Assembly: GCA_035998445.1 (NCBI GenBank) | Contig: DASYHQ010000018.1 | Coordinates: 434,001-498,000, forward strand | DNA length: 64,000 bases | DNA from: Tepidisphaeraceae bacterium | Lineage (GTDB): Bacteria > Planctomycetota > Phycisphaerae > Tepidisphaerales > Tepidisphaeraceae | Direction of reading: 5' to 3' | Shown here: positions 9,825 through 60,710 of the stretch, one piece after another | Numbering within the stretch: the stretch's first letter is position 1 | Layout of the letters: each line of letters begins with the position of its first letter | Notes under the pieces: model-generated | The model's database searches: none | What the model saw: only the letters and a program-made list of their open reading frames with translations | What the model was told of the DNA's origin: nothing | Translations under genes and position numbers: made by a program

Positions 9825-9879
9825 TACCCCTATCGTGGCACGCGGTCCCTACCGCGCCGCGCGTCCGATTCGTCCTTCT

Positions 9880-9984
9880 CTTCTGTAGGACCAACATTCC
9901 TGCCTGTCTCTCCCCCCCGTCCGCCTCTCCCCCGTATTCTTTCGAAAAGATCAAGACGCGAAGAGCGCGAAGTAGGCGCGAAGG
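9880..9984. repeat. Dispersed repeat, copy 1 (inverted relative to 52621-52730)
   Basis: The tract from CTTCTGTAGGACC through a C-rich run to GAAGAGCGCGAAG is similar, as reverse complement, to 52621-52730. Shared blocks include the TTCCTGCCTGTCTCTCC segment, the CCCCCGTAT segment and the GCGAAGAGCGCGA segment. It fills most of the gap before the binding-protein gene. Confidence 0.7.
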
Positions 9985-22373: not shown

Positions 22374-25300
22374 ATGGCCATTCGCGTTGCACTGAACCAC
22401 AAGACACGCTACCGGTACAAGAACAACGTCTGGCTGTCACCGCACGTCGTACGGCTGCACCCGGCGCCGCACACGCGCACGCCGATCGTCAGCTATTCGC
22501 TGAAAGTGACGCCCGGCGACCACTTCCTGAACTGGCTGCAGGACCCCTACAGCAACCGGCTGGCGCGACTGGTCTTCCCAAAGCAGACGCGCGAGTTCGC
22601 GATCGAGGTCGACCTGGTCGCCGAGTTGACGGTCATCAACCCGTTCGACTTCTTTCTCGAGCCGTACGCGGAGACGTTTCCCTTCACGTACGACGCGATG
22701 CTGCAGAAGGAGCTGGCGTCCTATCTACATGTCGACCCCGTGTCGCCAAAGCTCGCGTGCCTGCTCAAGCAGGCACGCCAGGCTGAGATGCGCACCGTCG
22801 ACTACCTCGTCAGCCTGAACGCGTTGGTTCAGCAGACCGTGAAGTACACGATTCGGCTTGAGCCGGGCATTCAGACGCCAGAGGAAACGCTGGCGCTGGG
22901 CACCGGTTCGTGCCGCGATAGCGCGTGGCTGCTGGTGCAGTTGCTGCGCAACCTTGGTTTGGCGGCCCGCTTCGTATCGGGCTACCTGATCCAGCTGGCG
23001 CCGGACGTGAAATCACTGGACGGCCCGAGTGGCACGGAAGTCGACTTCACCGATCTGCACGCCTGGACTGAAGTCTACCTGCCGGGCGCCGGCTGGGTCG
23101 GCCTGGACGCGACGAGCGGATTAATGACCGGCGAAGGCCACATCCCGCTCGCCTGCAGCGCCGACCCGCTCTCGGCCGCGGCCATCACAGGTTTTATTAC
23201 GGTCGATAAGGACACGACGATCGCCGAGCTTGAGCAGTTGCCCGATGCCACCTACGGCAAGTTGGAGGACGACGCGGGCGATACGTTTGAGTTCGCGATG
23301 ACCGTCACGCGCATCCACGAAGACCCGCGCGTTACCAAGCCCTACACCGACGAGCAGTGGGCCGAGATCGAATCGCTCGGCCATCAGGTGGACGCCGACC
23401 TGAAGCGCAACGACGTACGGCTGACCATGGGTGGTGAGCCGACGTTCGTGTCCATCGACGACATGGACGGCCCCGAGTGGAACAGTGACGCCCTTGGCCC
23501 CATGAAGTACAAGCGCGGCGATGAGCTCGTCCGGCGCTTGCGCGACCGCTTCGCGCCGGGTGGCTTCCTGCATCACGGGCAGGGCAAGTGGTATCCGGGT
23601 GAATCGCTGCCGAGATGGGCGTTCGGGTTGTACTGGCGCAAGGACGGCCAACCCATTTGGACCGATACGTCGCTGGTGGCGGACGAAACGAAGGACAACC
23701 GGTTGACGGAGAACGACGCCCGCGCGTTCATCATCGCGCTGGCCGAGCGGTTAAACGTCGACCCGCGGTTTGCGCTGCCGGGGTACGAGGACGTCTGGTA
23801 CTACCTGTGGAAGGAACGCCGGCTGCCGGTGAACGTCGACCCGTTCAACAGCAAGCTGGAGAACAAGCAAGACCGCGAGCGTCTGGCGAAGGTATTCGAG
23901 CAGGGGCTGGATAAGGTGATCGGCTACACCCTGCCGTTGCGACGCGACCGCTATACCGACGGCACCGGCGTCTGGACGAGCGGCGCGTGGTTCTTTCGGC
24001 CGGAGCGCATGTACCTTATTCCCGGCGACTCACCGATGGGATACCGGCTGCCGCTCGATTCGATCCCGTGGGTGTCGAAGACCGACTACCCGTACGTGCA
24101 CGAGATGGACCCATGGGCCGACCGCGCCCCGTTGCCCAGTCGCGAGGCCTTTGAAAAGCAGCAGTACCTCGTGGGCTCGCCTGAGCCGCGCCATCCGAGC
24201 GGCTACTTGGAGCAGACGCTCGAACCGGAATATACGATCGGCGACCGCGACGAGATGAACGCGGTGGACGCGTTCGGCTACAACGCCGGTGCCGACACAC
24301 GTGGTCGCAGCACGGGGCCCGGCCGAGGTCCGACGGCAACGCCACCGTTGCCGCCGTTGGACCCGTCGTTCCGCTCGCGCACCGACGAGCCGAGCCAGCG
24401 GCCAGCGCCGGGCCAGTCGGCGCCGTGGATCGTCCGCACCGCGCTCTGCACGCAGGTGCGCAACGGTGTGCTGCGCGTCTTCATGCCGCCGGTGCGACAT
24501 CTTGAAGATTACCTCGAGTTGGTGACCGCGCTCGAAGACACCGCCCGCGAGTTGAAGTTGCCGATTCTGGTCGAAGGCTATACGCCGCCGTACGACCCGC
24601 GCGTGAACGTGATCAAGGTGACGCCCGACCCGGGCGTCATCGAGGTGAACACGCATCCCGTGGAATCGTGGGACGACCTCGTGCGCAACACGACGGCGTT
24701 GTACGAGGAGGCTCGCCTGACGCGCCTTGGCACGGAAAAGTTCATGCTGGATGGCCGCCATACCGGCACGGGGGGTGGCAATCACATCGTGGTGGGCGCA
24801 TCGCGGCCGTCCGACTCCCCTTTCCTGCGCCGGCCGGACTTGCTGAAGAGCCTCGTAGGTTATTGGCACAACCACCCGTCGCTGTCGTACCTGTTCAGCG
24901 GCACGTTCGTCGGGCCGACCAGCCAGGCGCCGCGTGTCGACGAGGCGCGCAACGATCAGGTGTACGAGTTGGAGATCGCGTTCAAGGAAACCCGCCGCCG
25001 CGATGGTGACATTCCACCGTGGCTGGTCGATCGCCTCTTCCGCCACCTGTTGATCGACGCCACCGGCAACGCGCACCGGGCGGAGTTCTGCATCGATAAG
25101 CTCTACACCCCCGAAGGTGGCGCCGGCCGGCTTGGGTTGCTGGAGATGCGGGCTTTCGAGATGCCGCCGCACGCACGCATGAGCCTCACGCAGCACCTGC
25201 TGCTGCGAGCGCTCATCGCTCGCGTCTGGGCCCAGCCGTACGAGGCGCCGTTGGTGCGCTGGCGCACGGAGATCCACGACCGCTTCCTGCTGCCACATTT

Positions 25301-25934
25301 CGTCCGTCAGGATCTGGAAGACGTGATCGCCGACACGAACGCGTTCGGCTACGGCCTGAAGCCCGAGTGGTTCAACGCCCACTTCGAGTTCCGCTTCCCG
25401 CACTACGGCAACATCCAGAAGCGCGGTGTCGACGTTGAACTGCGCCAGGCGATCGAACCGTGGAACGTGCTCGGCGAAGAACCGGGCGGTGGTGGCACGG
25501 TGCGCTTCGTCGATTCGTCGCTGGAGCGTCTGCAGGTCTTCGTGAAGGGCATGACCGACCCGCGGCACGCGGTTACCGTCAATGGCGTGCGCGTCCCGCT
25601 GCACCCGACGGGCGTGAACGGGCAGTTCGTGGCCGGCGTGCGCTACCGCGCGTGGCGGCCACCGGAATGCCTGCACCCGACGATCGGCGTCCACTCGCCG
25701 CTCGTGTTTGACCTGGTGGACACCTGGGCGGGCCGGTCGATTGGTGGCGGCACGTACCACGTCTCGCATCCCGGCGGGCGCAGCTACGACACGTTCCCAG
25801 TGAACGCCTACGAGGCCGAGAGCCGCCGGATCGCGCGGTTCTTCAACTTCGGCCACACGCCGGGGCCCATGACGGTCGGTGAGCCGCGCGTCAGCAAGGA
25901 GTTCCCGTTCACGCTGGATCTGCGGACCGTTTGA
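22374..25934 (+). CDS. Transglutaminase-like protein with DUF2126 domain
   Basis: A 1186-residue protein. The N-terminal beta domain (about 5-85) and the transglutaminase-like core are followed by a very long DUF2126 region (about 300-1186). The cysteine-protease-type triad is intact: Cys180 (GTGSCRDSAW), His229 (DLHAWTE) and Asp245 (GLDATSG). The DUF2126 part has strongly conserved-looking blocks such as LTMGGEPTFVSIDD and DGRHTGTGGGNHIVVG, which resemble an amidoligase or glutamine-synthetase-like active site. No signal peptide is present. It is first in a three-gene operon with an ATP-grasp/alpha-E protein and a second transglutaminase. The chemistry is unproven; peptide bond making or cutting is expected. 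Confidence 0.9.
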   Translation: MAIRVALNHKTRYRYKNNVWLSPHVVRLHPAPHTRTPIVSYSLKVTPGDHFLNWLQDPYSNRLARLVFPKQTREFAIEVDLVAELTVINPFDFFLEPYAETFPFTYDAMLQKELASYLHVDPVSPKLACLLKQARQAEMRTVDYLVSLNALVQQTVKYTIRLEPGIQTPEETLALGTGSCRDSAWLLVQLLRNLGLAARFVSGYLIQLAPDVKSLDGPSGTEVDFTDLHAWTEVYLPGAGWVGLDATSGLMTGEGHIPLACSADPLSAAAITGFITVDKDTTIAELEQLPDATYGKLEDDAGDTFEFAMTVTRIHEDPRVTKPYTDEQWAEIESLGHQVDADLKRNDVRLTMGGEPTFVSIDDMDGPEWNSDALGPMKYKRGDELVRRLRDRFAPGGFLHHGQGKWYPGESLPRWAFGLYWRKDGQPIWTDTSLVADETKDNRLTENDARAFIIALAERLNVDPRFALPGYEDVWYYLWKERRLPVNVDPFNSKLENKQDRERLAKVFEQGLDKVIGYTLPLRRDRYTDGTGVWTSGAWFFRPERMYLIPGDSPMGYRLPLDSIPWVSKTDYPYVHEMDPWADRAPLPSREAFEKQQYLVGSPEPRHPSGYLEQTLEPEYTIGDRDEMNAVDAFGYNAGADTRGRSTGPGRGPTATPPLPPLDPSFRSRTDEPSQRPAPGQSAPWIVRTALCTQVRNGVLRVFMPPVRHLEDYLELVTALEDTARELKLPILVEGYTPPYDPRVNVIKVTPDPGVIEVNTHPVESWDDLVRNTTALYEEARLTRLGTEKFMLDGRHTGTGGGNHIVVGASRPSDSPFLRRPDLLKSLVGYWHNHPSLSYLFSGTFVGPTSQAPRVDEARNDQVYELEIAFKETRRRDGDIPPWLVDRLFRHLLIDATGNAHRAEFCIDKLYTPEGGAGRLGLLEMRAFEMPPHARMSLTQHLLLRALIARVWAQPYEAPLVRWRTEIHDRFLLPHFVRQDLEDVIADTNAFGYGLKPEWFNAHFEFRFPHYGNIQKRGVDVELRQAIEPWNVLGEEPGGGGTVRFVDSSLERLQVFVKGMTDPRHAVTVNGVRVPLHPTGVNGQFVAGVRYRAWRPPECLHPTIGVHSPLVFDLVDTWAGRSIGGGTYHVSHPGGRSYDTFPVNAYEAESRRIARFFNFGHTPGPMTVGEPRVSKEFPFTLDLRTV

Positions 25935-25988
25935 TCGGCCTAAGAGATTGCACCGGTCGCTGGGTATACTTGGCACGGCGTCCGCATT

Positions 25989-26128
25989 ACCGTGGCATGG
26001 GCGTCTCGCCCATGCGTCGGCCCGGAGCGGTTGACACGATTTGCGACGGAAGTTGAATCGACGGCGCCAGCAGAAAATCTTGCTTCGAGTCCTGCTGAAG
26101 TGCATGGGCGAGCCGCCCATGCCACGGT
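25989..26128. repeat. Family A element (140 nt), copy 2, inside the transglutaminase operon
   Basis: The terminal hairpin arms begin ACCGTGGCATGGGCG at 25989 and end with the inverse at 26128. The centre differs from the other copies. It lies between the first two genes of the operon, so it should be transcribed and fold into strong hairpins in the mRNA. It contains no stop codon in the frame of the downstream gene. Confidence 0.9.
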
Positions 26129-26165
26129 AAGAGCAGTCGCGACCACAACGAACGAGGTTGTTTTA

Positions 26166-28709
26166 TTGACGTTGTCCGAACAAGCCACCCTCGCCAAGCC
26201 CGCACCCGAGGTCGCCCACAGCTTTACCGAGGCCTACGCCGCCATCGCGGATGTGCCCGACGAGATGATGGAGCGCGACGGTTCGCTGCGCGCCCACTGG
26301 TGGCCGTTGGTCAACGGGTTGAACGATTTGGGCCCCGACGAACTCCCCCGCCGATGGGAACAGGCCCGGCGGTTGATTCGCGACAACGGTGTCACGCATA
26401 ACGTCTACGGTGACCCCGACGGCATGGAACGGCCGTGGAGCCTCGACTTCGTCCCGCTCGTCGTGTCAGCGGCCGAGTGGCAGAGCGTCGGCAAGGCGCT
26501 CGACCAACGTGCCCGCCTGCTGGACATGCTGTTGGCCGACCTGTACGGCCGCGCGCGTGTCGTCACCGAAGGCCTGCTGCCAGCCGAAGTGGTCTACGCC
26601 AACCGATCGTTCCTGCGCCCCTGCCATGGCCTCGACCTGCCGCACAGCCGCCGGCTGCACCTGTACGGGGCCGACCTCGCCCGCGGGGCCGATGGACGGT
26701 TTCAAGTGCTAAGCGATCGCACGCAGGCGCCGTCCGGCGCGGGCTATGCGTTGGAAAGCCGCATCGTGCTGTCGCGCGTGCTGCCGACCGTCTTCCGTCA
26801 ATGCAACGTGCAACGGCTGGCGCCGTTCTTCGTGGCCCTGCGTCAGACGCTCGCCTCGCTGGCGCCGGCCAACCGCGAGAACCCGCGCGTGGTCGTGCTG
26901 ACGCCCGGGCCGTACAACGAGACGTACTTCGAGCATGCCTACCTGGCCCGTTACCTCGGTTACACGCTCGTGCAGGGCAACGATCTGACCGTGCGCGACG
27001 CGAAGGTCTTCCTCAAAACGCTCGGCGGCCTGCAGCGCATCGACGTGATCCTTCGCCGGGTTGACGACGATTACTGCGACCCACTCGAACTGTTCGCCCG
27101 CAGCTACCTCGGCGTACCCGGCCTGCTGGAAGCCGTGCGCGAGGGCACCGTGGCGATCGCAAACGCGCTGGGCAGTGGCATCCTGCAGGGCCCGGCGTTC
27201 CTGCCGTTCCTGCCGGCCCTTTCGCGGCGGTTGCTGGGTGAAGACCTGGCGATGCCGTCGGTGCAAACCTGGTGGTGCGGTGACGCGGCGTCGCGGTCGC
27301 ACGTGCTGGCCAACTTGAACCGCCTGGTCATCAAGAACGCCTTCCCCGTGCGCGGCAACGACCCCCTATTCGGCCAATCGCTGACGCAGGCGGAACTGGA
27401 ACAACTGGCGACGCGCATCAACGCACGGCCGACCGACTTCGTCGCACAGGAACAGGTGACCGGTGGCACGGCGCCGGCGCTGTCGCGCGGCAAGGTCGAA
27501 CCCCGCCGGTTCGTCCTTCGCGCGTTCCTCGCTGCCACGGGTGACAACTACACGATCATGCATGGCGGGCTGACGCGCATCACTGAGTCGCCCGATTCCG
27601 TCGTTGTATCCCTTCAGAAAGGAGGCGGCAGCAAGGACACGTGGGTGCTGGCCGACGGCCCGGTCAGCGAGGTGACGCTGCTGCCGTCGACGTCGGCGCC
27701 GATCGAGCTCAGCCGCGGTGGCAGCGCGCTGCCGAGCCGCGTCGCCGACGACCTGTTCTGGCTCGGCCGATACATGCAGCGGGCGGAATCGACCGTGCGC
27801 ATCGCCCGCTGCGCGTTCAACCGCTTCGCCGACCAGAGCGGCGCCGAGAGCGCCCGCACCGCCGCCGTGCTGGCCCGCGAGGTGCTCGGCCGCGCGCCCG
27901 ACCGCCACGAGACCGGCGACCGCGACCTGCTCATCGGCGTCTTCGGGCGCAACCAGCGCTACAGCCTGCGATCGACCGTCGAAGGGGTGGACGGCCTGGC
28001 CCGCGTGCTGCGCGATCGCATCTCGATCGACGCGTGGCGCATCCTGCAGGACATCGAGCACGACGTCGAATCGTTCGATCCCGACCTCGATGCGCCCTAC
28101 GCCAGCGTGCTGGAAATGCTCAACAAGCTCGTGGTGAACATCGCTGCCTTCGGCGGGCTGGCGATGGACTCGATGACGCGCGGGCAGGCGTGGCGCTTCC
28201 TGGACCTCGGCCATCGCATCGAGCGCGCGACGCTCGTCACGCGGCTGCTGCACACGACGATGACCGACGCGCACGCCGGCAGCGCCTCGCTGCTGGACGC
28301 TGTTTTGGAAATCACCGACAGCACGCTCACCTACCGCCGGCGATACCTGACGCAGTTGGAAGTGGCGCCGGTGGTCGACCTGCTGCTGGCCGACGCCGAT
28401 AACCCCCGGGCCGTGGCGTTCCAGGTGGTGGCCATCCAGGATCACCTGAGCCACCTGCCGCGCGAGTCGACGCATCCGAACCGCGAGCCCGACCGCCAGG
28501 CGGCGGTTAAACTGCGCACGACGCTTCAGCTGGCCGACGTGCAGCAGATCTGCCAGCCCGTCGACGGCAACCGGCCGGCGCTGGCCACGCTGCTGAATGA
28601 GACGACCGACGCGCTGGCCACCATCTCGCAGCGCGTCGGGCAGATCTACTTCAGTCATGCGCAAGTGCCGCGACACCTCATGGCGCCGGCGCAGAAGGAG
28701 GGGCCGTGA
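26166..28709 (+). CDS. Circularly permuted ATP-grasp protein fused to an alpha-E domain
   Basis: An 847-residue fusion. Residues 1 to about 520 are the circularly permuted type 2 ATP-grasp module (DUF404/DUF407 type), with HWWPLVNGLNDLGPDELPRR, RRLIRDNGVTHNVYGDPDG, VVVLTPGPYNETYFEHAYLA and RVDDDYCDPLEL. Residues about 540-847 form the helical alpha-E domain (DUF403), with SRVADDLFWLGRYMQRAEST. ATP-grasp enzymes ligate a carboxylate to an amine. The start is uncertain: TTG 26166 has GAGG 8 nt upstream and the conserved part starts soon after. An ATG within the repeat at 25992 would add 58 repeat-derived residues. The stop overlaps the next start. Confidence 0.88.
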   Translation: MTLSEQATLAKPAPEVAHSFTEAYAAIADVPDEMMERDGSLRAHWWPLVNGLNDLGPDELPRRWEQARRLIRDNGVTHNVYGDPDGMERPWSLDFVPLVVSAAEWQSVGKALDQRARLLDMLLADLYGRARVVTEGLLPAEVVYANRSFLRPCHGLDLPHSRRLHLYGADLARGADGRFQVLSDRTQAPSGAGYALESRIVLSRVLPTVFRQCNVQRLAPFFVALRQTLASLAPANRENPRVVVLTPGPYNETYFEHAYLARYLGYTLVQGNDLTVRDAKVFLKTLGGLQRIDVILRRVDDDYCDPLELFARSYLGVPGLLEAVREGTVAIANALGSGILQGPAFLPFLPALSRRLLGEDLAMPSVQTWWCGDAASRSHVLANLNRLVIKNAFPVRGNDPLFGQSLTQAELEQLATRINARPTDFVAQEQVTGGTAPALSRGKVEPRRFVLRAFLAATGDNYTIMHGGLTRITESPDSVVVSLQKGGGSKDTWVLADGPVSEVTLLPSTSAPIELSRGGSALPSRVADDLFWLGRYMQRAESTVRIARCAFNRFADQSGAESARTAAVLAREVLGRAPDRHETGDRDLLIGVFGRNQRYSLRSTVEGVDGLARVLRDRISIDAWRILQDIEHDVESFDPDLDAPYASVLEMLNKLVVNIAAFGGLAMDSMTRGQAWRFLDLGHRIERATLVTRLLHTTMTDAHAGSASLLDAVLEITDSTLTYRRRYLTQLEVAPVVDLLLADADNPRAVAFQVVAIQDHLSHLPRESTHPNREPDRQAAVKLRTTLQLADVQQICQPVDGNRPALATLLNETTDALATISQRVGQIYFSHAQVPRHLMAPAQKEGP

Positions 28710-29650
28710 AGTACCGCGTCTCCCACGTCACCGAATATGGCTACGGCGAGGTCGTGCCGCTCAGCCACAACGTGCTTCACCTGAAGCCGCGCGACACGTG
28801 GCTGCAATCGACCCTGTCGAACACAATCGAGGTCGAGCCCGAACCGGCGGTGCTGCGGGAACGGCAGGACTTCTTCGGCAACCACGTGACGTGGCTGGCG
28901 ATCCAGGAACCGCACAGCCGCCTGCGCGTCGCCAGCATTAGCGAGGTGGACGTGGTGAAGTTCGGCCTGCCTGCCGGCTACGACGGTGGCGGTCCATGGG
29001 ATGCCGTGCCTGCGGCGCTAACGGACGGTCGCCGCGATGCCTACGCGCTGGACGCCGTGCAGTACACCTACGACTCGCCTTACATTCCGCGCAGCGCGGA
29101 ACTGGCCGATTACGCCAAGGCCAGCTTCCTGAACGGCCGGCCGTTGTTGGAGTGCGTTACGGAGCTGACGAATCGGATCTACAAGGAGTTCACGTTCGAC
29201 TCGAGCGCGACGTGCATCGGCACGCCGGTCGTCGACGTGCTGCGGCACCGCCATGGCGTGTGCCAGGACTTCGCGCACCTTCAGATCGGCATGCTGCGAT
29301 CGCTGGGCTTGGCGGCCCGGTACGTCAGCGGCTACATCGTGACGAACCCCTCGCCCGGGCGCGAACGAATGGTGGGATCGGACGCGTCGCACGCATGGCT
29401 GAGCGTTTTCTTCCCGCGCTTCGGCTGGATCGACTTCGACCCCACCAACGGCTGCCTGCCCAGCGACGAGCACGTCACCGTCGCCTGGGCGCGCGACTAC
29501 GACGACCTGAGCCCCGTCAAAGGCGTCATCATCGGCGGCCAGCGCCACTCGTTACGTGTGGGGGTGGATGTGATCCCGATCGTCGAGCCGACGCCGGCGA
29601 CCCACGCAGACGCCGCGGCCACCACCGATGCCGTGGCGCGGGGAGCGTGA
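28706..29650 (+). CDS. Transglutaminase family protein
   Basis: A 314-residue protein with the bacterial transglutaminase N-terminal beta domain (MKYRVSHVTEYGYGEVV onward, about 1-85) and a core with the triad Cys186 (HGVCQDFAHL), His229 (SHAWLSVF) and Asp245 (DFDPTNGC). No signal peptide. It starts with GTG overlapping the ATP-grasp/alpha-E stop (GTGA) and has AGGAGGGG upstream, so it is the third gene of the operon. Such proteins accompany ATP-grasp/alpha-E pairs in many bacteria, and a role as peptidase or amide-forming enzyme of that pathway is likely but unproven. Confidence 0.93.
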   Translation: MKYRVSHVTEYGYGEVVPLSHNVLHLKPRDTWLQSTLSNTIEVEPEPAVLRERQDFFGNHVTWLAIQEPHSRLRVASISEVDVVKFGLPAGYDGGGPWDAVPAALTDGRRDAYALDAVQYTYDSPYIPRSAELADYAKASFLNGRPLLECVTELTNRIYKEFTFDSSATCIGTPVVDVLRHRHGVCQDFAHLQIGMLRSLGLAARYVSGYIVTNPSPGRERMVGSDASHAWLSVFFPRFGWIDFDPTNGCLPSDEHVTVAWARDYDDLSPVKGVIIGGQRHSLRVGVDVIPIVEPTPATHADAAATTDAVARGA

Positions 29651-29675: not shown

Positions 29676-29759
29676 CGTAGCGACGTTGAGCCGCGGGCTT
29701 GCCCGCGATGGATTGCTTCCGAAACAATCGCGCGCAAGCCCGCGGCTAAACGTGCTACG
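29676..29759. repeat. Inverted repeat with AGCCGCGGGCTTG arms
   Basis: An inner 21-bp arm (AGCCGCGGGCTTGCCCGCGAT) and its inverse differ by one base, and flanking GTAGC/GCTAC blocks extend the pairing. It lies between the convergent ends of the transglutaminase operon and the minus-strand gene at 29771. It belongs to a type different from family A. Confidence 0.8.
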
Positions 29760-29770
29760 CTGGGTCTCGC

Positions 29771-30175
29771 TTACGCGTAATGCGCAGACTGGAAGGGGCT
29801 GCTGATCAACTGCGTGCAATTGATCTTCACAGCGCCCTCGCTGGTGGTGCACATGCCTTGGCCGATGATCTGGTTGCGGCGCTTGGCGCTGACGATCTCG
29901 AAATCGTTCCCGAGGAACGCGCGCCAGTCCGTCTTGCCCTCGTAGGTCGTCGACCCGTTGGCACCGGCCATCAGGCGGGCGATCTCGGGTTTCTCCAGCG
30001 TGCTCTGGGGATCAAAATCGAAGACGTAGTGCCATTCCCCCTCGTGCTTCACGACCTGGGCGTTCCACAGCACGAGGTACTTCCCGCCGCTCACCCGCAG
30101 ATTATTGGCCCCAGCGGATCGCATGACACTCCACGGCTTCAACGGCGTGGCCGACTTCTTGTAAACGTGTACCAT
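29771..30175 (-). CDS. Protein of unknown function, 134 residues, paralogue of 30510-30914
   Basis: I do not recognise this family. The 134-residue product begins MVHVYKKSATPLKPWSVMR and shares with its neighbour the blocks VYK+S-PxxPWxVMR, G-NN, YLVLWNAxVV, WHYVF-FD, DWRxxLG-D and a late I-GQ/I-L segment, with about 40% identity by eye and the same length. No signal peptide, membrane helix or cysteine motif is present; the fold looks like mixed alpha/beta. ATG 30175 was chosen by alignment with the paralogue; no Shine-Dalgarno is seen. The two genes are in tandem with a family A repeat between them. Confidence 0.72.
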   Translation of the reverse strand: MVHVYKKSATPLKPWSVMRSAGANNLRVSGGKYLVLWNAQVVKHEGEWHYVFDFDPQSTLEKPEIARLMAGANGSTTYEGKTDWRAFLGNDFEIVSAKRRNQIIGQGMCTTSEGAVKINCTQLISSPFQSAHYA

Positions 30176-30351
30176 GCCCGAAACATACGACGCGTTTTTC
30201 GCTCCGGGAGCGCAGAAACCGCCCACCTGGCCTAAGAAATTTCGAATTTGATTCAAGTTGTAAGGATTGTTCGGCCGAGGCGGTTGGGTGCGGTTGGGAG
30301 GACGCCCGGCAAATTGCGGAGTTCGCTACCGGTGTCTGCAATGTAGGTCCA

Positions 30352-30492
30352 ACCGTGGCATGGGCGCCTCGCCCATGAGTGTGATGTGGCCGGAAGAGCT
30401 TCTTGTGACCAGTTGCGCAGTCGAAGTGGATAGTCACGAAAACGAGCTTCACGTCTGATTGACCGCCCTAGGCAAGGCGTCCATGCCACGGC
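30352..30492. repeat. Family A element (141 nt), copy 3, with a decayed right end
   Basis: The left arm 30352-30381 (ACCGTGGCATGGGCGCCTCG...) is intact, while the right arm near 30471-30492 keeps only AAGGCGTCCATGCCACGG. The total length equals the other copies. It lies between the two 134-residue paralogues in the 30176-30509 gap. Confidence 0.82.
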
Positions 30493-30509
30493 GAGACCGG
30501 CCGGACGTT

Positions 30510-30914
30510 CTACTGCTGGCGAAGGGGGAACTGGCTGGAACCCACGCGCAGAGTGGTAATGACCACCTTGTCGCCCGCCTCGTTGCCGGCGCTCTTCAGA
30601 ATTTCCTGTCGGCGGCTGTTGTCGATGATCGTCCAGTCGCTGCCGAGCCACTTGCGCCAGTCGGCGCCGTCGGGGTAGCGCGTGGCGGTGGTCGCCGAGC
30701 CGGTGAAGATCTGGGCCAGTTCAGTGATCTCCAGCGAGTCGCGGTTGTCGAACTCGAACACGTAGTGCCACTGGTCATCCTTGCGGACGACGTCGGCGTT
30801 CCAGAGGACGAGGTAGCGTTGCTTCACGTCCGGCGCGATGTTGTTGCGCCCGCCGTGACGCATGACGTCCCAGGGATGCATCGGGGAATCCGAACGCTTG
30901 TAGACGTACAGCAT
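30510..30914 (-). CDS. Protein of unknown function, 134 residues, paralogue of 29771-30175
   Basis: Family not recognised. The product begins MLYVYKRSDSPMHPWDVMR and aligns along its whole length with the downstream paralogue: RNN, YLVLWNADVV, QWHYVFEFD, DWRKWLGSDW and the end region. The shared parts are hydrophobic or aromatic core positions and an Asn/Trp pair, while the C-terminal tails diverge. ATG 30914 aligns with the other copy, and no ribosome binding site is visible. It is divergent from ubiX with a 131-nt space. Gene duplication is clear; the function is unknown. Confidence 0.74.
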   Translation of the reverse strand: MLYVYKRSDSPMHPWDVMRHGGRNNIAPDVKQRYLVLWNADVVRKDDQWHYVFEFDNRDSLEITELAQIFTGSATTATRYPDGADWRKWLGSDWTIIDNSRRQEILKSAGNEAGDKVVITTLRVGSSQFPLRQQ

Positions 30915-39767: not shown

Positions 39768-39908
39768 ACCGTGGCATGGGCGTCTCGCCCATGCATGTCG
39801 CGAGGCCAGAAGACTGGATTAACGTCTGCGGCCTGGTCGGCGCAGCGGCCCACAAATGTCGCATTCCGTGCCAGTCCACAAGCATGGGCGAGACGCCCAT
39901 GCCACGGT
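39768..39908. repeat. Family A element (141 nt), copy 4, nested in an older inverted repeat
   Basis: The left arm 39768-39797 is identical to the left arm of copy 1; the right arm is 39882-39908. Its centre shares GCAGCGGCCCACAAATGTCGC and CCAGTCCAC blocks with copy 6. It is flanked by the complementary arms 39723-39742 and 39935-39954 (18 of 20 matching), so it appears to have inserted into another element. Confidence 0.9.
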
Positions 39909-52620: not shown

Positions 52621-52730
52621 TTTCGCGACTCCATCGCGCTCTTCGCTTCTAACGCTTCTGTCTTATGCATTGGATACGGGGGGAGAACGGGGGGAGAGAC
52701 AGGCAGGAATGCCTGTCCTACAGAAGAGGA
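52621..52730. repeat. Dispersed repeat, copy 2 (inverse of 9880-9984)
   Basis: The tract from TCGCGACTCC over a G-rich run to GGCAGGAATGCCTGTCCTACAG is the reverse complement of the 9880-9984 tract with several differences. Inside is a short palindrome, ACAGGCAGGAATGCCTGT. Confidence 0.7.
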
Positions 52731-53012: not shown

Positions 53013-53093
53013 ATGGCAATGAAGAAGACCGCTAAGAAGGCCACGAAGAAGGCGACCAAGAAGACGACGAAGAAGACTACGAAGAAGAAGTAG
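53013..53093 (+). CDS. 26-residue Lys/Thr/Ala-rich histone-tail-like protein
   Basis: A 26-residue frame starting MAMKKTAKKATKK and consisting almost entirely of Lys, Thr and Ala in KKT/KKA units. It resembles the tails of histone H1, Hc1/HctB or AlgP. A promoter with 17-nt spacing, a perfect Shine-Dalgarno and a strong terminator frame it, so it is almost certainly expressed as its own unit. Binding to DNA, RNA or acidic proteins is likely. Such a short free tail is unusual, as most similar sequences are parts of longer proteins. Confidence 0.8.
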   Translation: MAMKKTAKKATKKATKKTTKKTTKKK

Positions 53094-53233
53094 TCCTTCG
53101 CGGAGGGCCCAACCGGTCCTCCTGCTGGAGCGCGTGGCACTTAGAAGTCTCCGGCGTCTTTCAGGTTTAATCGAACCCGTCACCCTTAACCGTTTTGGAC
53201 CCGGCTCCAACTTGGGTCACGAAACAACAGAAG

Positions 53234-60276: not shown

Positions 60277-60672
60277 ATGACAACCGCACTGCACTGTGCC
60301 GACTTCGCCGCCCTGCCCGACTACCTCCGCCAGGCAGTGGCTTCCACGCTCTCGGGCCTGATCGCCCCGGCCCGCCCCCTTGGCTTCCTCGACGACGACG
60401 CGCTTCCCTCGGCCGCCAAGCGCAAGGCCAAGGATGAGGACGCGGAAGACGAAGAAGACGAGGATGAGGACGACGAGGACGAAGAAGACGAGGATGAAGA
60501 CGACCTCGATGAGGACGAGGACGACGCCGACCTCGACGACGATGAGGACGAAGACGAGGATGAGGACGAAGACGAGGACGACGACGAGTTCGACGACGAC
60601 GAGTCCGACGACTTCGACGATGACGATGACGACGACGATGATGACGATGACGAATTCGAAGAAGAAGACTGA
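60277..60672 (+). CDS. Extremely acidic protein (Asp/Glu repeats)
   Basis: A 131-residue protein. Residues 1-45 are ordinary (MTTALHCADFAALPDYLRQA, then a short basic patch AAKRKAK). Residues 50-131 are about 90% Asp and Glu in DEDEDD-type runs with rare Phe, Leu and Ala. The second half is a disordered, strongly negative tail. No family is assigned; acidic tails of this sort bind basic proteins or cations. The hairpin at 60220-60245 and the downstream terminator suggest a single-gene unit. Low-complexity coding DNA is GAC/GAG/GAT-rich. Confidence 0.78.
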   Translation: MTTALHCADFAALPDYLRQAVASTLSGLIAPARPLGFLDDDALPSAAKRKAKDEDAEDEEDEDEDDEDEEDEDEDDLDEDEDDADLDDDEDEDEDEDEDEDDDEFDDDESDDFDDDDDDDDDDDDEFEEED

Positions 60673-60710
60673 TCGTCACGCGTAACGCGATCGATCCCAG
60701 CAGCAATCCA

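Follow-up and report, generated by a model that had tools for sequence, protein, structure and literature searches.

A REPIN lies between two diverged paralogues of an orphan protein family in a Tepidisphaeraceae genome, probably as a later insertion

When a repeat element is found exactly between two related genes, the question arises whether the repeat gave rise to the gene pair or came to rest there afterward. Such an arrangement is seen in the genome of a Tepidisphaeraceae bacterium, in a stretch of 64,000 nucleotides (hereafter the window), where the orphan genes A and B flank a repeat element (Table 1). The initial annotation of this DNA had left room for both a repeat-mediated duplication and a later insertion. 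We consider it probable that A and B descend from an old duplication within a fast-evolving family, known here from two genomes, and that the element, which is a REPIN, inserted later.

Table 1. Features of the A/B locus in window coordinates
Feature	Position	Strand	Remarks
Long near-perfect palindrome, different from the REPIN	29677..29760	.	outer bases GTAGC...GCTAC; z -9.1
Gene A (P0001), orphan 134-aa protein, paralogue of B	29771..30175	-	
REPIN, two inverted GTGG-tagged REP hairpins with variable interior	30353..30491	.	139 nt, between B stop and A start
Left REP end	30353..30377	+	1 mismatch in 25 against consensus
Right REP end, decayed	30467..30491	-	5 mismatches in 25 against consensus
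Gene B (P0002), orphan 134-aa protein	30510..30914	-	upstream member of the pair by transcription direction

The earlier description of A and B as tandem paralogues of equal length, with their positions and strand, was borne out. BLASTP aligns the two proteins at 105 bits with 53 of 130 columns identical (41%), and the alignment score of 259 compares with a maximum of 51 across 500 shuffles. Common to both are the blocks PWxVMR, YLVLWNA and WHYVF-FD, as had been pointed out; the shared blocks had also been called rich in asparagine, which is hardly fitting, as few asparagines are common to A and B. As in the initial annotation, no known family was found. Profile searches of Pfam, PHROGs and PADLOC gave nothing above cut-off, NCBIfam gave a single match below it (12.9 bits where 85 are required, E 0.095), and among PDB sequences B alone had no match, while the family profile reached E 0.19 at best.

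The family is very rare and patchy by lineage. Genome searches, which covered the source genome's own phylum, found two copies in that genome, namely A and B. In the family-level sample of 26 genomes, which is identical to the order-level sample, the first search listed three genomes and the profile search two; those accepted are the source genome and G011, a Phycisphaerae MAG (86% complete) with a single copy, C. The third, G006, matched at E 0.004 over 33 residues, was missed by the profile at E 0.01 and was dropped as chance. At the class level 2 of 397 genomes were accepted from three listed, and G709 was dropped as chance as well (E 0.0099 over 55 residues of a 141-aa frame, absent at E 0.001); from its sequence, we take the ORF adjoining this frame to be nucleotidyltransferase-like. 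Within the phylum sample of 392 genomes the source genome was the one positive, and two further searches at E 0.001 were negative in all 350 genomes each, although it is important to bear in mind that their genome lists overlap largely and add far fewer than 700 new genomes, and that an empty result of this kind, with no positive among the genomes, is uninformative. A contig scan with short peptide patterns, which may miss distant relatives, matched 28 stretches, one of which held a relative (L007, on a 59,217-base Phycisphaerae MAG contig). This locus and the G011 copy are taken as one, C, which is the sole outside member found here. Zero relatives were accepted from the viral contigs, phages and plasmids searched; a Cupriavidus plasmid match at E 0.1, obtained with C but with neither A nor B, overlaps ORFs of the opposite strand and was taken as chance.

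The three members were compared with one another. Identity is 45% between B and C, 41% between A and B, and 38% between A and C; over the 130 columns common to the three, the identities number 56, 52 and 47, respectively, with 36 shared by all. B-C was the closest pair in 70% of 2000 bootstraps, compared with 22% for A-B and 2% for A-C; ties made up the rest, and the ranking is not decisive. From these alignments, unrooted and of three members, the split between A and B looks about as old as that between B and C, or older, and A and B now differ about as much as B and its counterpart C from another genus. The UbiX proteins of the source genome and G011 are 81% identical and therefore the A/B/C family evolves fast by comparison. 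At the DNA level, the coding sequences of A and B are 54% identical in a codon alignment, with 70 of 131 third positions differing.

These values also bear on whether the pair arose in place at all, as A and B could have been acquired separately, one of them by horizontal transfer. The patchy spread of the family and the nominally closer relationship of B to C than to A would both fit separate arrival, but the genes are adjacent on the same strand, their third-position G+C is that of the host genes, which argues against recent arrival from DNA of a different composition, and the search of phages, plasmids and viral contigs yielded no accepted relative. We regard separate acquisition as unlikely, and local duplication as the better account of the pair.

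The element between the genes begins 18 nt past the stop codon of B and is intergenic. The initial annotation correctly reported one element at this location, with a decayed right end. Each end carries a REP unit, composed of GTGG followed by CATGGGCG-TCT-CGCCCATG, with the GTGG tetranucleotide at the outer side of both palindromes, and 44 of the 50 sites in the two ends together agree with the consensus. Six such end pairs, spaced 136-137 nt, are contained within the window. Across the genome there are 116 and 121 exact half-sites, compared to 0 and 0 in the backward control, and an exact half-site is found in 5 of the 26 family-level genomes, the source genome counted. On the transcription strand, the RNA of the element folds at -63 kcal/mol (z -5.0), which none of 200 shuffles equalled. 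The inverted doublet, hairpin fold, GTGG tags, copy number and a RAYT-like domain flanked by the same REP identify the element as a REPIN, a term taken from the work of Bertels and Rainey (2011, PMC3116915) on the REP-RAYT system. The parallels with that system are an inverted, hairpin-forming REP doublet that is present in high copy, is extragenic at this site, and has its REP bordering the RAYT-like domain of the genome. In contrast, the tag here is GTGG and not GTAG, a variant that is itself in print, as GTGG is reported for the majority of GTAG-20 elements in O. terrae in PMC3733652; the interior is ~90 nt and differs among copies; and the candidate RAYT is located in frame within a helicase gene.

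REPINs are non-autonomous elements whose movement is attributed to a RAYT, an HUH tyrosine transposase, and a search of the source genome for the Y1_Tnp domain returned eight places, seven of them above the cut-off. Three of these (L039, L040 and L044) score 58-75 bits against the NCBI RAYT model, under its curated cut-off of 80. At L043, a Y1_Tnp match above the Pfam cut-off (30.1 bits, partial, profile positions 40-99 of 121) is bounded by exact inverted arms of 29 nt, which hold the same REP as the element between A and B. Because this REP lies in its flanking arms, L043 is the strongest candidate for the RAYT cognate to the family. The candidate domain is in frame, with no stop, within a 921-aa DinG-like helicase frame (L072, 435-3200, on contig G000:C58), such that Helicase_C_2 (1e-50) and Y1_Tnp (5.8e-7) are matched in one frame. 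The solved DinG structure 6fwr can be aligned with this frame on either side of the RAYT-like domain, over residues 21-248 and 706-912. Within L072, the RAYT-bearing element spans approximately 1754-2448 and measures 695 nt by its REP boundaries, which is not a multiple of three. REPs within repair genes are already in print (PMC3733652), and the authors of PMC6006769 state that they left out a few Y1 proteins of excessive length, taking them for fused genes or faulty annotation. In the literature examined, including the available parts of these two papers, we came across no case of an entire RAYT lying in frame within a gene.

Two other Y1_Tnp loci are bounded by inverted arms. At L042 (1289-1917, contig G000:C64), 40-nt arms of a second REP-like family with a CTGTAGGACAGGCATTCCTGCCTGTC core surround another Y1_Tnp domain, which is in frame with a 553-aa ThiD2/thiamine monophosphate synthase frame; this second repeat (I4) has two copies in the window, at 9878-9917 and 52689-52728. 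At L045, inverted arms of 31 nt (at 195 and 1071) that carry GTAG enclose one more Y1_Tnp frame.

Having identified the element, we can return to the order of events. In their coding DNA, A and B retain 54% identity while the element ends retain 44 of 50 consensus sites, and therefore the element would be later than the divergence of the genes. Across its whole length, the element is 0.61 identical to the consensus, under all 17 reference copies (0.65-0.89), and it may be fairly old. However, exact 13-nt ends were the criterion by which these references were picked, and the interior differs in every copy, so that full-length identity is not a reliable guide to age. An insertion 18 nt past the stop codon of B that has since started to decay would accommodate both the divergent genes and the better-kept ends, and the later insertion that had been put forward as a possibility thus fits best.

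The other early suggestion was a repeat-mediated duplication. In that event the gene would have been doubled through recombination of REPIN copies, one of which stayed behind between the products, and this would explain why a single element lies exactly between the paralogues in a genome where such repeats are abundant. Against it, no paired element flanks the outer sides of the pair, the nearest others being at 25991-26126 and 39770-39906, ~4 kb and ~9 kb away. Nor is the surrounding DNA duplicated: between A and B, upstream flanks score 16 against a shuffle mean of 16 and downstream flanks 14 against 18, whereas the coding DNA scores 123 against 24 in the same comparison, indicating no homology outside the coding parts. 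Without surrounding copies of the element or common flanks, an origin by recombination is not supported; in addition, the divergence between A and B far exceeds that of the REP ends from the consensus. Whether the repeat occurs in single-copy genomes had also been suggested as a check, and could be followed in part: G011, the sole single-copy genome found, contains zero exact copies of the 25-nt REP end, a result obtained at 86% completeness. Taken together, these observations make a repeat-mediated duplication very improbable, and old duplication followed by REPIN insertion is the reading that we carry forward.

We also looked at related genomes for the neighborhood of the pair. UbiX is matched in 22 of 25 relatives, but in its flanks (~1.5 kb, less at contig ends) the transglutaminase, A, B and pyruvyl-transferase genes are absent at E 1e-4. 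The UbiX neighborhood is thus not kept in relatives and an empty site is not demonstrable. In the list of ORFs surrounding C (L007), nothing corresponding to the neighbors of A and B was noticed; the tblastn comparison was limited to A, B and the genes named above.

What might the inserted element do to the genes beside it? Placed 18 nt past the B stop codon and strongly folded as RNA, the REPIN may shield the B message and separate the expression of B from that of A. A terminator scan at the element found 0 sites where 1.8 were expected, which speaks against simple termination behind B, and a promoter scan gave a single weak site, within gene A (0.2 expected). A different palindrome (Table 1) separates gene A from the transglutaminase-like gene that converges on it, and the exact 13-nt core of this palindrome is found nowhere else in the window.

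All of the above presupposes that A and B are genes. G+C content by codon position is 0.53/0.44/0.85 for A and 0.59/0.41/0.89 for B, compared to 0.61-0.66/0.41-0.47/0.85-0.89 for five other genes in the window, so that the first positions are a little low. In all three pairwise comparisons (A, B and C, one of them from a second genome), the annotated frame gave the top score among all frame pairs. By codon-position G+C and frame conservation, then, A and B look to be coding on the minus strand. Chance or antisense frames in high-GC DNA would account for the long open frames that the opposite strand also carries, for the absence of any family match and for the lack of a clear ribosome-binding site before the three ATGs, but as the codon-position G+C agrees with the minus strand, the annotated frame is the best conserved, and the two overlapping opposite-strand frames give zero matches to Pfam and NCBIfam, we consider such an artefact extremely improbable. 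In the upstream sequences inspected, a TANNNT hexamer ends 6, 6 and 13 nt ahead of the start in A, B and C, respectively, which could reflect leaderless or short-leader messages, or else chance.

The products of the pair were approached through two AlphaFold models, with mean pLDDT of 62 and 71. The models run from a strand through a short helix and two long strands to helices and a final strand, and, weak as they are and with no significant fold match, they suggest a ferredoxin-like sheet. The structure search proposed with the initial annotation identified no relative: Foldseek returned nothing at E 0.001 for either model against the PDB, or for the second model against a viral library. The top VIA-align rows were 7vg8_A for model 1 (Z 5.5, rmsd 3.1, 80 aligned) and 6h8o_A for model 2 (Z 6.5, rmsd 3.0, 78 aligned), closely followed by MecA/YpbH (Z 5.0 and 5.2), RRM (4.6 and 4.8) and ACT (4.4 and 5.2). 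For both models the top rows are HUH endonuclease domains of CRESS-DNA virus Rep proteins, but Z is below 8, under the level of trust, so that the resemblance is possibly just a common arrangement. The H-hydrophobic-H/Q metal motif is found in none of the three proteins, and Y..K matches occur at differing places, at residue 78 in A and residue 3 in B and C. An HUH Rep identity was rejected on the missing motif. As a guess to be held loosely, A and B may be small, soluble domains of the alpha/beta (ferredoxin-like) type, whose conserved Trp, His and Tyr residues would bind a ligand or partner, and not HUH nucleases. More speculative still is that they represent an undescribed, fast-evolving ferredoxin-like family of one Phycisphaerae lineage, in which a divergent pair would serve different partners and the REPIN would uncouple their expression; we would put little weight on it.

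Elsewhere in the window, an operon-like run at 22374-29650 comprises DUF2126/transglutaminase, circularly permuted ATP-grasp/alpha-E and transglutaminase genes. A REPIN at 25985-26142 overlaps the listed start of the ATP-grasp gene (25992), and so the true start is probably further in. Low-complexity repeats at 60415-60684 and 53018-53101 read as Asp/Glu-rich and Lys-rich codons.

The A/B pair itself is of modest interest, as an orphan with a paralogue and an intergenic REPIN are to be expected in a genome with more than 100 such elements. It does provide a caution, in that a repeat sitting between paralogues need not be their cause. Study of the pair further brought to light, in a Phycisphaerae genome, a REP family with a candidate transposase inside a DinG-like helicase gene, and this in-frame arrangement of helicase and RAYT is perhaps of more interest than A and B and is worth a separate study.
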